DNA from: Actinomycetes bacterium
GTDB lineage: Bacteria > Actinomycetota > Acidimicrobiia > Acidimicrobiales > RAAP-2
Reading direction: 5' to 3'
Assembly: GCA_021807265.1 (NCBI GenBank)
Contig: JAKAPH010000004.1
Span: forward strand, 1-40,669
Length of the DNA stretch: 40,669 nucleotides
A program made the translations under genes and the position numbers. How positions within the stretch are numbered: position 1 is the first letter of the stretch; every line of letters begins with the position of its first letter. The notes beneath the pieces were generated by a model. It did not search any database, was not told the origin of the DNA, and was given only the letters and a program-made list of their open reading frames with translations. Shown here piece by piece: positions 25,018-33,027 of the stretch.

Positions 25018-25033
25018 CCATCCGAAGGGATGG
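25018..25033 (+). promoter_or_regulatory. 5'-UTR hairpin immediately upstream of the SBP ribosome-binding site
   Basis: CCATCC-GAAG-GGATGG followed by purine-rich ATGGGGGGAGA and ATG 25051. Confidence 0.45.
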
Positions 25034-25050
25034 ATGGGGGGAGACAAACC

Positions 25051-26403
25051 ATGGAGGTACGACGCACACGTCGTCTCACGATTACCGGCTCGGCGCTCGC
25101 ACTGAGCCTCAGTCTGGTCACGATGGGGGCATCGATGGGATCGGCGAGCGCTGCAACGAGGGCGCCCAAAGTCCCAGGTGTGACCGCGAAACAGGTGACC
25201 ATCGGCGCGACGGTGCCGCTCACCGGCATCGCGTCCCAGGGCTATAGCGAGGTCGCCAAGGCTGCGAACGCAGTCTTCACGTGGGTGAACCAGCATGGTG
25301 GCATCAACGGTCGCAAGATCAAGTACGTCATGAAGGACGACTGCTACGGCACCCCAGGATTCGGCTGCACGGGCAACCCGAACACTGTCGCCCAGACCAA
25401 GGCGCTGCTCGCGTTGCCGGTCTTCGCGACCGTCGGCTCGCTCGGCACGCCGACCCAGGACTCGGTGCGCGCACTGCTGAAGGCCAACCACGTGCCCCAG
25501 CTGTTCGTCAACTCGGGCTCGAAGGACTGGAACAACCCCAAGACCTACCCGGGTCTGTTCGGGTGGCAGACCAGTTACACGGTCGAGAGCAAGATCCTCG
25601 GCCAGTACCTGAACCAGCACTTCGCGAACCAGAAGACCTGCTTCTTGGGCCAGCACGATGACTTCGGTGCTGACGGCCTGCTCGGGCTCAACTACGTCGG
25701 GATCAACCCGACCGACTCGATCATGTACGACGTGGCCGGACTGGTCACGGGCGGGGCGGGCTACTTCACGCCGTTCATCCAGAAGTTCCAGTCTGACGGG
25801 TGCAAGGTCGTCGTGCTCGACACGATCCCCGGTGCGACCGACGCCGCGCTCGGCAACGCGCTCGCGCTCGGCTACTCGCCGCAGTGGGTCATCTCCAGTG
25901 TCGGTGCGGACCCGGTGACGGTCGACGCGCCCTTCGCGGGCAAGCCCTTCCCGGACCCCGAGATCGGCGCCATCTCGTTTGACTACCTGCCCGCGTCCTC
26001 GGACACGTCGGTGTGGAACGGCTGGATGCGCACGGTCATCGCGAACGACAACACCGACTTCCCGAACTTCACGTCGAGCACGCCGATGGACGGCAACATG
26101 GAGTACGGCATCGGCTGGGGCGTCGCCTTCGTCGAGGCGCTGCGGGCCGCCGGGCGCAACTTCACCCGGGCGAGCTTCCTGCACACCCTGACCACGACGA
26201 CATTCCAGACGCCGGCGCTCGTGCCGCTGCACTACACGGCGAGCAACCACCAGGGCTTGAACGGTGGCTACATCATCAAGATCACGAGTGCCACGACGTC
26301 GGGCGTGCTTGACCGCACCGTCTACACGACGGGTTCGAACAAGTCGAGCGCGATCGTGGCGACGTCGAAGCTGAGCACGGCGATCCCGGCCTGGCTGCAG
26401 TAA
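25051..26403 (+). CDS. Branched-chain amino acid-type ABC substrate-binding protein
   Basis: Signal peptide, VTIGATVPLTGIASQGYSEVAKAANAVFTWVNQHGGINGRKIKYVMKDD. Confidence 0.92.
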   Translation: MEVRRTRRLTITGSALALSLSLVTMGASMGSASAATRAPKVPGVTAKQVTIGATVPLTGIASQGYSEVAKAANAVFTWVNQHGGINGRKIKYVMKDDCYGTPGFGCTGNPNTVAQTKALLALPVFATVGSLGTPTQDSVRALLKANHVPQLFVNSGSKDWNNPKTYPGLFGWQTSYTVESKILGQYLNQHFANQKTCFLGQHDDFGADGLLGLNYVGINPTDSIMYDVAGLVTGGAGYFTPFIQKFQSDGCKVVVLDTIPGATDAALGNALALGYSPQWVISSVGADPVTVDAPFAGKPFPDPEIGAISFDYLPASSDTSVWNGWMRTVIANDNTDFPNFTSSTPMDGNMEYGIGWGVAFVEALRAAGRNFTRASFLHTLTTTTFQTPALVPLHYTASNHQGLNGGYIIKITSATTSGVLDRTVYTTGSNKSSAIVATSKLSTAIPAWLQ

Positions 26404-26426: not shown

Positions 26427-26468
26427 ATCAACAACGCGCCCCGGCTTCGGCCGGGGCGCGTTGTTGAT
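26427..26468 (+). terminator. Terminator-like hairpin after the SBP gene
   Basis: 19-bp perfect stem atcaacaacgcgccccggc / gccggggcgcgttgttgat with TTCG loop; weak T-tract. Confidence 0.8.
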
Positions 26469-26485
26469 TCCAGCCCCGAAAGCGC

Positions 26486-26889
26486 TGTGCGAAACGTGGG
26501 GATTGCTGGCACCAGCCGGTGCACAACGCCCGCTTCATCGGTGGATAACGGGAGAAATCCGGGGTAAAAGTTCTCGATTTCCCCGTTTGGGTGCGGTTGC
26601 CCCTTTCGCGATCCGCGCCGCTTTGGCACAGTGATCCTTGTAGTTCACGGAGTACCGGTCGACGATCGGCGAAACCGCGAGGGGACGTCGACGGAGGGGC
26701 GAGGGACCTCGAAAGAGGGACGGAGCCACTTACCGGGCGGTGGGGTTCGGCCCACCGTTCGCACGACGAATACCGTGAACACCGCCGTCACACGGTGGCC
26801 CGTCCGACACGGGTCAGCGCGAGACGTGCCTTCGGAGACCCCGAGAGGCTGGAGGGCTTGCCCACTGGTCACTCGGGGTCTTCGGCTTT
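26486..26889 (+). repeat. 404-bp direct repeat, copy 1 (candidate structured ncRNA)
   Basis: No mismatch seen by eye to 27030-27433 at an offset of 544; several hairpins and a terminal G/C-rich stem; strand inferred from the hairpin followed by CTTT. Confidence 0.9.
26836..26881 (+). terminator. Terminator-like stem at the end of repeat copy 1
   Basis: AGACCCCGAG / CTCGGGGTCT 10-bp arms followed by TCGGCTTT. Confidence 0.5.
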
Positions 26890-27029
26890 CCCGGGTGAAT
26901 CCCGACTCGACGAAAGCGATCGGCCTCGGCTCCGTGGCGCTACGCACCGGCCGGCGCGGGGCCGACGACGACGCGGCGGCGTCAACGACACGCTGGCAGC
27001 TCGCCAGGCAGCCGTGGCCCCGCTGACAT

Positions 27030-27433
27030 TGTGCGAAACGTGGGGATTGCTGGCACCAGCCGGTGCACAACGCCCGCTTCATCGGTGGATAACGGGAGAA
27101 ATCCGGGGTAAAAGTTCTCGATTTCCCCGTTTGGGTGCGGTTGCCCCTTTCGCGATCCGCGCCGCTTTGGCACAGTGATCCTTGTAGTTCACGGAGTACC
27201 GGTCGACGATCGGCGAAACCGCGAGGGGACGTCGACGGAGGGGCGAGGGACCTCGAAAGAGGGACGGAGCCACTTACCGGGCGGTGGGGTTCGGCCCACC
27301 GTTCGCACGACGAATACCGTGAACACCGCCGTCACACGGTGGCCCGTCCGACACGGGTCAGCGCGAGACGTGCCTTCGGAGACCCCGAGAGGCTGGAGGG
27401 CTTGCCCACTGGTCACTCGGGGTCTTCGGCTTT
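27030..27433 (+). repeat. 404-bp direct repeat, copy 2 (candidate structured ncRNA)
   Basis: Same as copy 1; ends one base before the SRAP stop codon complement at 27434. Confidence 0.9.
27380..27425 (+). terminator. Terminator-like stem at the end of repeat copy 2
   Basis: Same 10-bp arms as copy 1 followed by TCGGCTTTT. Confidence 0.5.
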
Positions 27434-28126
27434 TCAAAAGAGCGGTGGCGCCTCGAGTGGCTCGATGAGCGAGGGCCCGTCGTTGCGGATCGAGCCGACG
27501 GCCGCGCCGACGCCGTAGTGGACGAGGGTGCCCGGGCGCGCGGGCCGTAACAGCAGCGCCCGCTCGTCGGGTCCGTAGTCCGTGACGTCGAGCCACTGCT
27601 CGACGTCCTCGAGCTCGAGCACGACGGGCATCCGGTCGTGCACGCCGTCCATGTCGGCGTTCGGGGTCGTCGTGATCACGGTGCAGGTCGCGATGACCTC
27701 GTCGCCCGACGACCAGTGCTCGTAGAGGCCGGCGAGGACGATGGGCTCATCGTCACGGCGGGTGAAGTAGTGGGGCTGGCGGTGCTTGCCCGGCCGGTGG
27801 TCCCACTCGTAGAAGCCGTCGACGGGGATGGCGCAGGGGCGCCGCGCGAAGGCCGCGCGAAACGACGGCTTCTCGGCGACCGTCCCGCCCCGGGCGTTAA
27901 AGAGCCGATCGGCCATGCCCGGGTCCTTCGCCCAGCTGGGCAGGAGCCCCCACCGGTAGCGGTCGAGCACCCGGGTGCCCTCGCGCTCGCTCACCGCGAC
28001 GAGGTACTGGCGCGGTCCGACGTTCCAGCTCGGTCGCTCCTCGGGGTCGAGCCCGGCCGCGAGGGTCGCCTCGAGGAGCCGCGCGAGGCGGCTCGGGGGG
28101 CTGAACAGGGCGATTCGCCCGCACAT
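27434..28126 (-). CDS. SRAP-domain (HMCES/YedK-like) SOS-response-associated protein
   Basis: MCGRIALF with Cys2, NARGGTVAEKPSFRAAF, CAIPVDGFYEW, HDRMPVVL; start at 28126 exposes Cys2. Confidence 0.93.
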   Translation of the reverse strand: MCGRIALFSPPSRLARLLEATLAAGLDPEERPSWNVGPRQYLVAVSEREGTRVLDRYRWGLLPSWAKDPGMADRLFNARGGTVAEKPSFRAAFARRPCAIPVDGFYEWDHRPGKHRQPHYFTRRDDEPIVLAGLYEHWSSGDEVIATCTVITTTPNADMDGVHDRMPVVLELEDVEQWLDVTDYGPDERALLLRPARPGTLVHYGVGAAVGSIRNDGPSLIEPLEAPPLF

Positions 28127-28188
28127 AGGACTCCTCTCTGCTCTGACGATAGGCCGTTGGCGCGCGTCACCGGGACTGGGTACTCTTA

Positions 28189-28202
28189 CGAACATATGTT
28201 CG
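28189..28202. promoter_or_regulatory. LexA/SOS box
   Basis: CGAACATATGTTCG, perfect palindrome of the actinobacterial CGAAC-N4-GTTCG type, upstream of imuA'-imuB-dnaE2. Confidence 0.88.
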
Positions 28203-28852
28203 CTTCTTCATCGGTTCGACCCCCCATTCCCCCCGAACTGGCCGCCACGCTGCGCCCGGTGAGCTTCGCCACGCATCGGCGAATCGCCCTCGACGAGCCG
28301 TGGCGCAGCCTCGTTCCCGGCGAGGGACTGCGCCGCGGCTCGACGATCTCGGTCCAGGCGCCGTCGGGGGCCGGTGGGCTGAGCCTCGCCCTGAGCCTGC
28401 TCGCCGGGGCGAGCGCGCGCGGCCACTGGGCGGCGGTGGTGGGGGTCGACGACCCCGGCGTACTCGCCATGGCCGACCTCGGGGTCGACCTGCGCCGGGT
28501 GCTCTTCGTGCCGCGCCCCCGCGGCGCGTGGGCTGAATCGGTCGCGGACGTCCTCGACGGCGTGGACCTGGTGATCGTGCGGCCCCCGTCGCGCGCCGCG
28601 CGGGGCAGCGCGCGGGTACTGACGGACCGGGTTCGCGAGCGCGGCGCGGTGCTGCTCGTGGTGAGCGAGTCCGCCTCGACGTGGCCCCTGCCGGTCGACC
28701 TCTCCTTCAGCGTCACCCACGCGCAGTGGTCGGCGTCGTCTCGCCTCGAGAACCGCACGCTGCGCGTGCGCATCGAGGGCCGCGCCGGCGTGCGCGGCGC
28801 CGAGCACGTCGTGGTGCTGCCCGATCGTCGGGGACGGGCGGCGGGTGGCTGA
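28197..28852 (+). CDS. ImuA'-like RecA-fold mutasome accessory protein
   Basis: GLRRGSTISVQAPSGAGGLSLALSLLAGASARGHWAAVVGVDDPG; directly upstream of imuB and dnaE2; Walker A lacks the Lys. Confidence 0.8.
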
Positions 28853-29928
28853 ATGGAACGACTCATCGGTGTCTGGGTCGAGTCCCTGCGCGTCGAGGCC
28901 CTCGACGGCTCCACGCTGCGCGAGTCGCTCGTGCTCCTGGACGCGCTCGGGGTGGTCTGTCCCTTCACCGAGCTGATCCACCTCGGCTTCTACGCGCTGC
29001 CGTCGCGGGGCCCGAGCCGGTTCTTCGGGGGCGAGCAGCGGGTGCTCGAGGCGGTGGCGACGGTGGTGCGCGACGTGCTCGGACGCGAGGCGTCCCTCGG
29101 CGTGGCCGACGGGCTCGTCTGGTGCGAGTTCGCGGCGCGCGACGGCGTCGTGGTCGCACCGGGAGAGACCGACGACTACCGGCGCGCGAGGCCCCTGTCG
29201 GTGCTCGGGCGTCGCGACCTCGCCACGACCGGCCGCCGGCTCGGACTGACGACGGTGGGGGACTTCGCCGACCTGGCCCGCGCGCGGGTGAGCGAGCGCT
29301 TCAGCGCGTCGGTGCTGGTGCTGCACCAGGTCGCGCGCGGCGAGCTCGACGAACTGCCCGGTCAGCGCGACGTGCGACTCGGGGCGCGCCTGGGCCGCCT
29401 GCGCGAGGCCGACCGGCCCGACGAGCAGCGGGGGTTCTTCGGCCAGCGCGGCGCGGCCGACGACCGGGCGCACGCCGCGGCGCTGCGCCTGCGCCAGCGT
29501 CTCGGGGCCGACGGCGTGGTCGTGGCCGCGCTGCGCGGTGGCCGCCTGCCCCAGGACCGCGCGGCGCTCGTGCCCTGGGGGTCGCCGACGGCGGTCTCGC
29601 AGGACGACGCGCCGTGGCCGGGCCAGCTGCGCGCGCCGTCGCCCGCGACGGTGTTCGCCCACCGGGTGGCGGTCGAGCTGCACGGCGCGGCGAACGAGGC
29701 GGTCCGGGTGGACGCGCGCGGGACGCTCAACACGGCCCCGACCTCGTTCGCCTTCGCCTCGGGCGCCCTTCGCGCCGTGACCTGGTACGCGGGCCCCTGG
29801 CCGCTCGTCGAGCGGTGGTGGGCGGTGGGCCGGCGCCGGGCGCACCTGCAGGTGCTGCTCGAGACCGGGGAGGCCCTGCTGCTCGTGGCCGAGTCGGGCC
29901 GCTGGTCGCTCGCGGGGGTCTACGACTG

Positions 29929-29929
<1 letters not shown>
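28853..29929 (+). CDS. imuB: ImuB-like Y-family pseudo-polymerase, short form
   Basis: LGFYALPSRGPSRFFGGEQRVLEAVATVVRD, LGVADGLVWCEFAARDG, RLGLTTVGDFADLARARVSERF; between imuA' and dnaE2. Confidence 0.8.

Positions 29930-33027
<3,098 letters not shown>

Follow-up and report, generated by a model that had tools for sequence, protein, structure and literature searches.

What kind of gene is a 404-bp sequence that occurs twice, without a single difference, between a livK-like gene and an SRAP gene in a genome bin of the order Acidimicrobiales? In the window (the whole stretch of DNA analysed, 40,669 nt long), positions 26486–26889 and 27030–27433 are exactly identical over 404 bp at an offset of 544, and the 140 bp between them (26890–27029) are unrelated sequence, confirming both the identity and the separation that a preliminary description of the locus had reported. 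The genome bin (G000; 1.64 Mb, 82% complete) holds exactly two copies, both in the window. Copy 1 (26486–26889, forward strand), delimited by the exact repeat and agreeing in its limits with the conserved part of single-copy homologues, comprises a complete gene unit of box array, promoter, and RNA, and copy 2 (27030–27433, forward strand) repeats this unit in full. Upstream of copy 1 lies the livK-like gene for a periplasmic binding protein (25030–26403; PF13458), followed by a perfect 19-bp hairpin (inverted repeat I4; 26427–26468, forward strand) that is probably the terminator of the livK-like gene and separates it from copy 1. On the other side, the stop codon of the convergent SRAP gene (27434–28195, reverse strand; PF02586, E = 1.3 × 10−64), which lies outside the RNA gene, abuts copy 2; by neighbour clusters, SRAP is the commonest right-hand neighbour in the genus. 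The stretch 27434–33027 contains SRAP, two open reading frames without a Pfam match in the place expected for ImuA/ImuB-like proteins, and a DNA polymerase III alpha-type (DnaE2-like) polymerase, and is probably an SOS mutagenesis cassette adjoining the RNA pair.

We regard it as near certain that each 404-bp copy is a real RNA gene. Positions 26640–26889 and 27184–27433, both on the forward strand, are a conserved, structured non-coding RNA of about 250 nt with an inferred 5′ end, and covariance model R1 matches 26631–26889 and 27175–27433 with 250 bits each. The earlier impression that the element is non-coding held up: most homologues interrupt the open reading frames of the window, reference frames remaining stop-free in 2–18 of ~68, and homologue lengths (374–407 bp) fall into all three classes modulo 3, on which grounds a protein-coding reading was rejected. 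The forward strand folds better than 100 of 100 shuffled sequences (z = −3.67), and the reverse strand does not stand out from its shuffles (z = −1.5). From alignment A1, which comprises 65 distinct homologues of the genus over element positions 146–404, RNAalifold derived a consensus of eight helices and 67 pairs, in which 97.4% of cells are paired and both partners have changed in 33 of the 67 pairs. None of 500 shuffles of the alignment reached any of five covariation measures, a control that overstates significance because the sequences are related, and paired cells dropped to 39–48% when the structure was slid along the alignment. Despite this relatedness, the compensated pairs at columns 22:152 (UA 33, CG 25, GC 4) and 31:145 (UA 34, CG 26) are hard to explain otherwise.

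In the consensus, the 5′ segment UUCACG pairs with CGUGAA ~130 nt downstream (columns 15–22 with 152–158 of 272), enclosing further hairpins; this 5′ domain is followed by a long hairpin whose tip, CUGUCCGACACGG, is invariant, and then by the 3′ hairpin AACCCCGAG...CUCGGGGUU. The 3′ hairpin (CCCCGAG...CTCGGGG; 26835–26884 in copy 1 and 27379–27428 in copy 2, forward strand; model R2 score 66.5 bits in both) is the part conserved order-wide, as traced with models R2 and R3, and 13 of its 19 pairs covary across the order; within family f35 the sequences were too alike for a test of covariation. The conserved loops GUUCGGU and CCGAC, both of which hardly vary, could kiss through UCGG and CCGA, which we offer only as a suggestion. 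Most of the hairpins listed in the preliminary description lie in the RNA part and within the covariation-supported consensus; the exception is the first of them, AACGGG(A)GAAATC/GATTTCCCCGTT, which is located upstream of the promoter among DnaA-box-like sequences and is not conserved as a hairpin.

Rfam 15 at the gathering score returned no match in the window except one tRNA, a permissive threshold also gave nothing at the element, and the 20 homologous loci searched had no Rfam RNA match at the element at E values up to 3. Weak sX6 and miRNA-like signals at about 26430–26470 were set aside, since they fall on the GC-rich terminator hairpin of the livK-like gene. The element is not RNase P RNA, tmRNA, or SRP RNA, and neither these models nor the 6S model match at the locus; the preliminary description had likewise recognised none of the four. 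RNase P RNA is encoded elsewhere in 59 of 61 genomes, the genome bin itself having its own on contig C140, and SRP RNA was found elsewhere in 25 of 26 genomes, in the bin on contig C20. tmRNA scored above the cut-off elsewhere in 22 of 26 genomes; the incomplete bin gave only tRNA-like partial tmRNA matches, none of them at the element. The 6S model (RF00013) had no match in 31 relatives, and the element is not a recognisable 6S RNA: size range and single gene are alike, whereas 6S RNA has paired 5′ and 3′ ends and a large central bubble, and the two ends of the RNA here do not pair with each other and there is no promoter-mimic bubble.

A blastn search of 150 relatives, 90 of them from the same genus, found homologues in 76 of the 90 genus genomes, mostly as one copy each. 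Model R1 added G040, G016, G019, G052, G063, and G085 and matched G079 weakly, and the element is present in at least 82 of the 90 sampled genus genomes. Blastn matches of 27 nt in G117 and G149 (E about 5 × 10−4) were taken as chance, and phage and plasmid collections held no match to the element. In other families of the order R1 touches the 3′ hairpin only; the hairpin model R2, applied to the order (identified as Acidimicrobiales from record names), matched 101 of 397 genomes, usually once per genome, and 52 of 204 genera, and most of the 36 order loci inspected have a promoter of the form CTTGAC-N17-CANANT 156–301 nt upstream of the hairpin. When the hairpin pattern was searched over 85,462 species genomes, nearly all of the matches listed came from Acidimicrobiia, Acidimicrobiales, or unspecific actinobacteria, and model R3 gave few weak matches outside the order in a phylum sample. 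Among the weak R3 matches in other classes, L280, L283, and L286 look like possible members. Four others (L281, L282, L284, and L285) were not counted; their hairpin stands a few nt behind a TTGAC-type promoter without an array, a different arrangement that marks a leader-type element of another kind.

An NTP_transferase/FabH gene pair lies behind the RNA in part of the genus and in the sister genus g62, and one of these two genes is found there in families f46 and f27, a synteny that supports common descent. Since the RNA body between promoter and hairpin is unalignable outside the genus, homology there rests on the hairpin, the promoter spacing, the array, and some synteny. Read from these features, the gene represents an undescribed RNA family spread across an order whose bacteria live in soil and water. 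The suggestion that this is an undescribed RNA is borne out by the missing Rfam match, the strong covariation, the lack of a conserved frame, and homologues throughout the genus and in other families; our literature search found no description of an RNA of this kind, and the family itself is new, being a member of no family that could be tested and set apart from Ms1 by fold and neighbours.

Several loci depart from the usual arrangement. In two loci of the sister genus (L086 and L087), at least two tandem degenerate ~175-bp repeats (AATCCACCGAAC...GGGGAGGC) occur ~400 bp upstream of the 3′ hairpin, so that a longer, modular RNA is possible there. At L095/L109 (G374:C357), a distance of 355 nt separates two hairpins (CCCCGAG/CTCGGGG and CCCCAAG/CTTGGGG), perhaps another tandem RNA-gene pair, in an unrelated family. 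In the sub-clade of L047, L053, L055, L058, L063, L064, and L071, the RNA is succeeded on its own strand by genes for an ECF-type sigma factor and for a membrane protein whose position is that of an anti-sigma factor.

Each copy opens with ~150 bp of promoter region that carries phased DnaA-like boxes, a feature missed in the preliminary description along with the order-wide spread of the gene. The promoter (26604–26632 in copy 1 and, identically, 27148–27176 in copy 2, forward strand) combines a weak −35 element, TTTCGC (26604–26609 and 27148–27153), with a −10 element, CACAGT (26627–26632 and 27171–27176), that lies 17 bp further on and has an extended TGG; it is marked by TGGCANNGT, which is conserved in the genus, and TTGAC-N17-CANANT stands in the same place in other families. 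Before it, the first ~85 bp of the copies in the genus carry 9-mers like the DnaA box TGTGGATAA; these share one orientation and stand near +1, +12, +23, +54, and +75. In the array of copy 1 (26486–26583, forward strand) the boxes are TGTGCGAAA at 26486, TGGGGATTG at 26497, GGTGGATAA at 26540, GGGGTAAAA at 26561, and GATTTCC at 26577, with positions conserved in homologues and spacing and box type conserved order-wide; the array of copy 2 (27030–27127, forward strand) is identical. The upstream parts contain 74 such 9-mers with at most one mismatch versus 2.4 in shuffled sequence, a ratio that is overstated as the homologues are not independent, and the RNA part contains none. From the GGTGGATAA-type box to the −10 element the distance in the genus is either 76–77 or 87 bp, with no value between, and thus changes by one helical turn.

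The same layout recurs across the order, where many loci have T[GC][TG]GGA[TC] boxes at −20, −31, −52, −62, −73, −84, −94, and −105 from the −35 element, in places that match those in the genus. TG[GT]GGA[TC] boxes upstream of the order-level promoters likewise lie in one orientation, at a density of 12.3 per kb versus a background of 0.49 per kb, a ratio somewhat flattered by choosing the motif after inspection and taking the promoter with the most boxes. Phase played no part in either choice, and the boxes follow a period of 10.7 bp with R = 0.907 (45 positions, 16 loci), a resultant reached by 0 of 20,000 random sets. The boxes are degenerate, with G as common as T at position 3. Families f28, f29, and f48 have promoter and hairpin without recognisable boxes, and some order loci (e.g., in f3 and f27) gave no promoter match with the pattern used, so either the array is not universal or some outer matches are false. 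Overall, we consider the assignment as a DnaA-box array probable.

This assignment draws on the origins of the same lineage. The dnaA–dnaN intergenic regions of 20 order genomes contain TGTGGA (36) and TGGGGA (15) boxes, which in several genomes are in one orientation, ~21 bp apart, and beside DnaA-trio-like CTACTACT repeats; the boxes of the element are therefore of the oriC kind in those genomes. E. coli DnaA prefers boxes 2–3 bp apart (PMC11317965), gaps that produce 11–12 bp steps, as in the element. Thus 9-mers, single orientation, 2–3 bp gaps, and TGTGGA type are shared with oriC arrays and DnaA-regulated promoters of E. coli (PMC11317965), whereas unlike oriC arrays the array here precedes an RNA gene, keeps its promoter phase over the order, and has no unwinding region. 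A reading of the element as oriC was rejected on finding dnaA–dnaN origins on other contigs; judged from contig coordinates, dnaA is on another contig or far away (481 kb in G066 and 1.4 Mb in the single-contig G264). With DnaA-box-like 9-mers found upstream of the promoter, DnaA control of the RNA is likely, and we infer that DnaA is the protein that binds the array.

The identity of the two copies had been ascribed to very recent duplication or gene conversion, of which only the latter explanation is retained. In G000, G042, G084, and G026 the copies are 99.5–100% alike within a genome, the few differences being confined to three final bases included past the 404, versus 78–91% between genomes, and their spacers, which are not conserved, are only 16–45% alike. 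Further pairs occur in G041 and G061 (93% and 85% alike) and in G231. High identity within genomes, lower identity between them, and diverged spacers indicate that the pair is old in this clade and that its copies have been homogenised. The paired copies evolve in concert, and gene conversion that keeps them alike fits these comparisons without the need for a very recent duplication. Plain tandem duplication of a 544-bp unit does not by itself produce this layout and was rejected, since copy 2 is followed by sequence other than the spacer. Two contigs (G047:C18:1–127 and the end of G071:C50; L019 and L020) break off within the RNA, where they are 98% identical to the window copy; because G047 has a further copy of 71% identity, C18 may have been binned wrongly.

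DnaA is the initiator of replication and also regulates a small set of genes, and small RNAs and DnaA-controlled promoters are, as such, known kinds. The reading that we favour, with moderate confidence as a whole, is that each 404-bp copy would be a complete non-coding RNA gene with transcription of its own. The like-oriented 9-mers lie on the same side of the helix immediately before a sigma-70-type promoter; DnaA, or another protein that recognises these boxes, would bind them and would control, most likely activate, transcription of a multi-helix RNA of ~250 nt ending at the conserved hairpin. The RNA would act in trans, as suggested by its standing alone and by a next gene that is often convergent, and in the clade of the window the gene would form a tandem pair kept identical by gene conversion. 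Transcription, binding by DnaA, activation, and action in trans are all predictions. Our most likely guess at the role is that the RNA would tie gene expression, or the control of replication, to the replication cycle, and we give a trans-acting regulatory role coupled to replication close to an even chance. The idea of a small RNA joined to replication or cell-cycle control is shared with CcnA (PMC8959179) and EcpR1 (PMC4414408) of Alphaproteobacteria, which differ in belonging to an unrelated phylum and to the CtrA/GcrA/dnaA circuit and in not being marked by a DnaA-box array.

Other explanations would retain the sequence observations and change what the element is. Two identical copies in one contig could point to a mobile or REP/MITE-like repeat, or to an assembly artefact of the kind the preliminary description had warned of; the chance of this is close to negligible, as most of the genus has one copy per genome, often with the same neighbour, terminal inverted repeats and further copies in the genome are lacking, and the separately assembled G042, G084, G026, G041, G061, and G231 carry the pair with different spacers. 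A cis-acting leader or riboswitch of the downstream gene would suit the sub-clade in which a same-strand gene for an ECF-type sigma factor starts 40–88 bp downstream, but in most genomes, including at both window copies, there is no close same-strand gene, the next gene usually being convergent, and the RNA ends in a strong hairpin; we consider such a role highly improbable. A single RNA gene with its own promoter, order-wide and fast-evolving, could also be an RNA polymerase-binding RNA of the Ms1 or 6S type that has diverged very far, and the lack of Rfam 6S matches in the relatives, together with the absence of the word Acidimicrobi from the Ms1 survey, would leave room for one. Ms1 (PMC4191392, PMC9130861) is similarly a stand-alone sRNA gene of ~250–300 nt with its own promoter, fast divergence, and wide occurrence in an actinobacterial lineage. 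However, Ms1 and 6S RNA fold into one long hairpin that has a bubble at its centre (PMC4191392), whereas the 5′ end of the RNA here pairs internally and is followed by two further domains, and Ms1 is flanked by HAD-IB hydrolase and oxidoreductase/Fic genes close to ori, whereas the neighbours here are SRAP, GNAT, NTP transferase, and FabH, far from dnaA. Nor did our literature search turn up an array of boxes upstream of Ms1. An Ms1 identity, or a diverged relationship of this type, is thus unlikely; if the RNA does bind RNA polymerase like Ms1, its novelty falls.

Two further alternatives concern the array. Stable RNA promoters preceded by phased sites for activators other than DnaA are known, as with Fis at rrn P1, and another activator with a similar 9-mer might occupy the boxes, making the RNA growth- or stress-controlled with no link to replication. 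Many of the boxes are indeed TGGGGA rather than TGTGGA, and the second and third are very degenerate in the genus; yet both types occur together in the dnaA–dnaN origins of the same genomes, and the gap of 2–3 bp between neighbouring boxes is that preferred by E. coli DnaA, so that we consider a different activator rather unlikely. Alternatively, the array, with its single orientation, oriC-like spacing, and location away from dnaA, could be a datA/DARS-like site for DnaA titration or reactivation, or a second origin, with the RNA secondary. Strong selection on the RNA as RNA, the fixed distance and phase of the array to the promoter, the ordinary oriC with DnaA-trio-like repeats between dnaA and dnaN, and the lack of a visible AT-rich unwinding region in the element make this very unlikely.

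In its broadest form, the RNA would be an undescribed class of the whole order, possibly of its taxonomic class, under direct DnaA control through a phased array, linking gene expression with the replication cycle and perhaps filling the position that 6S RNA or Ms1 has in other lineages, a proposal that remains tentative and to which we give somewhat less than an even chance. The identical pairs with diverged spacers are a clear example from nature of an RNA gene shaped by gene conversion, and a little-studied, mostly uncultured lineage gains a conserved RNA to annotate, along with a model that finds it. If the proposed control is correct, an order-wide RNA gene with an oriC-like array in fixed phase would provide a directly testable RNA arm of replication control.
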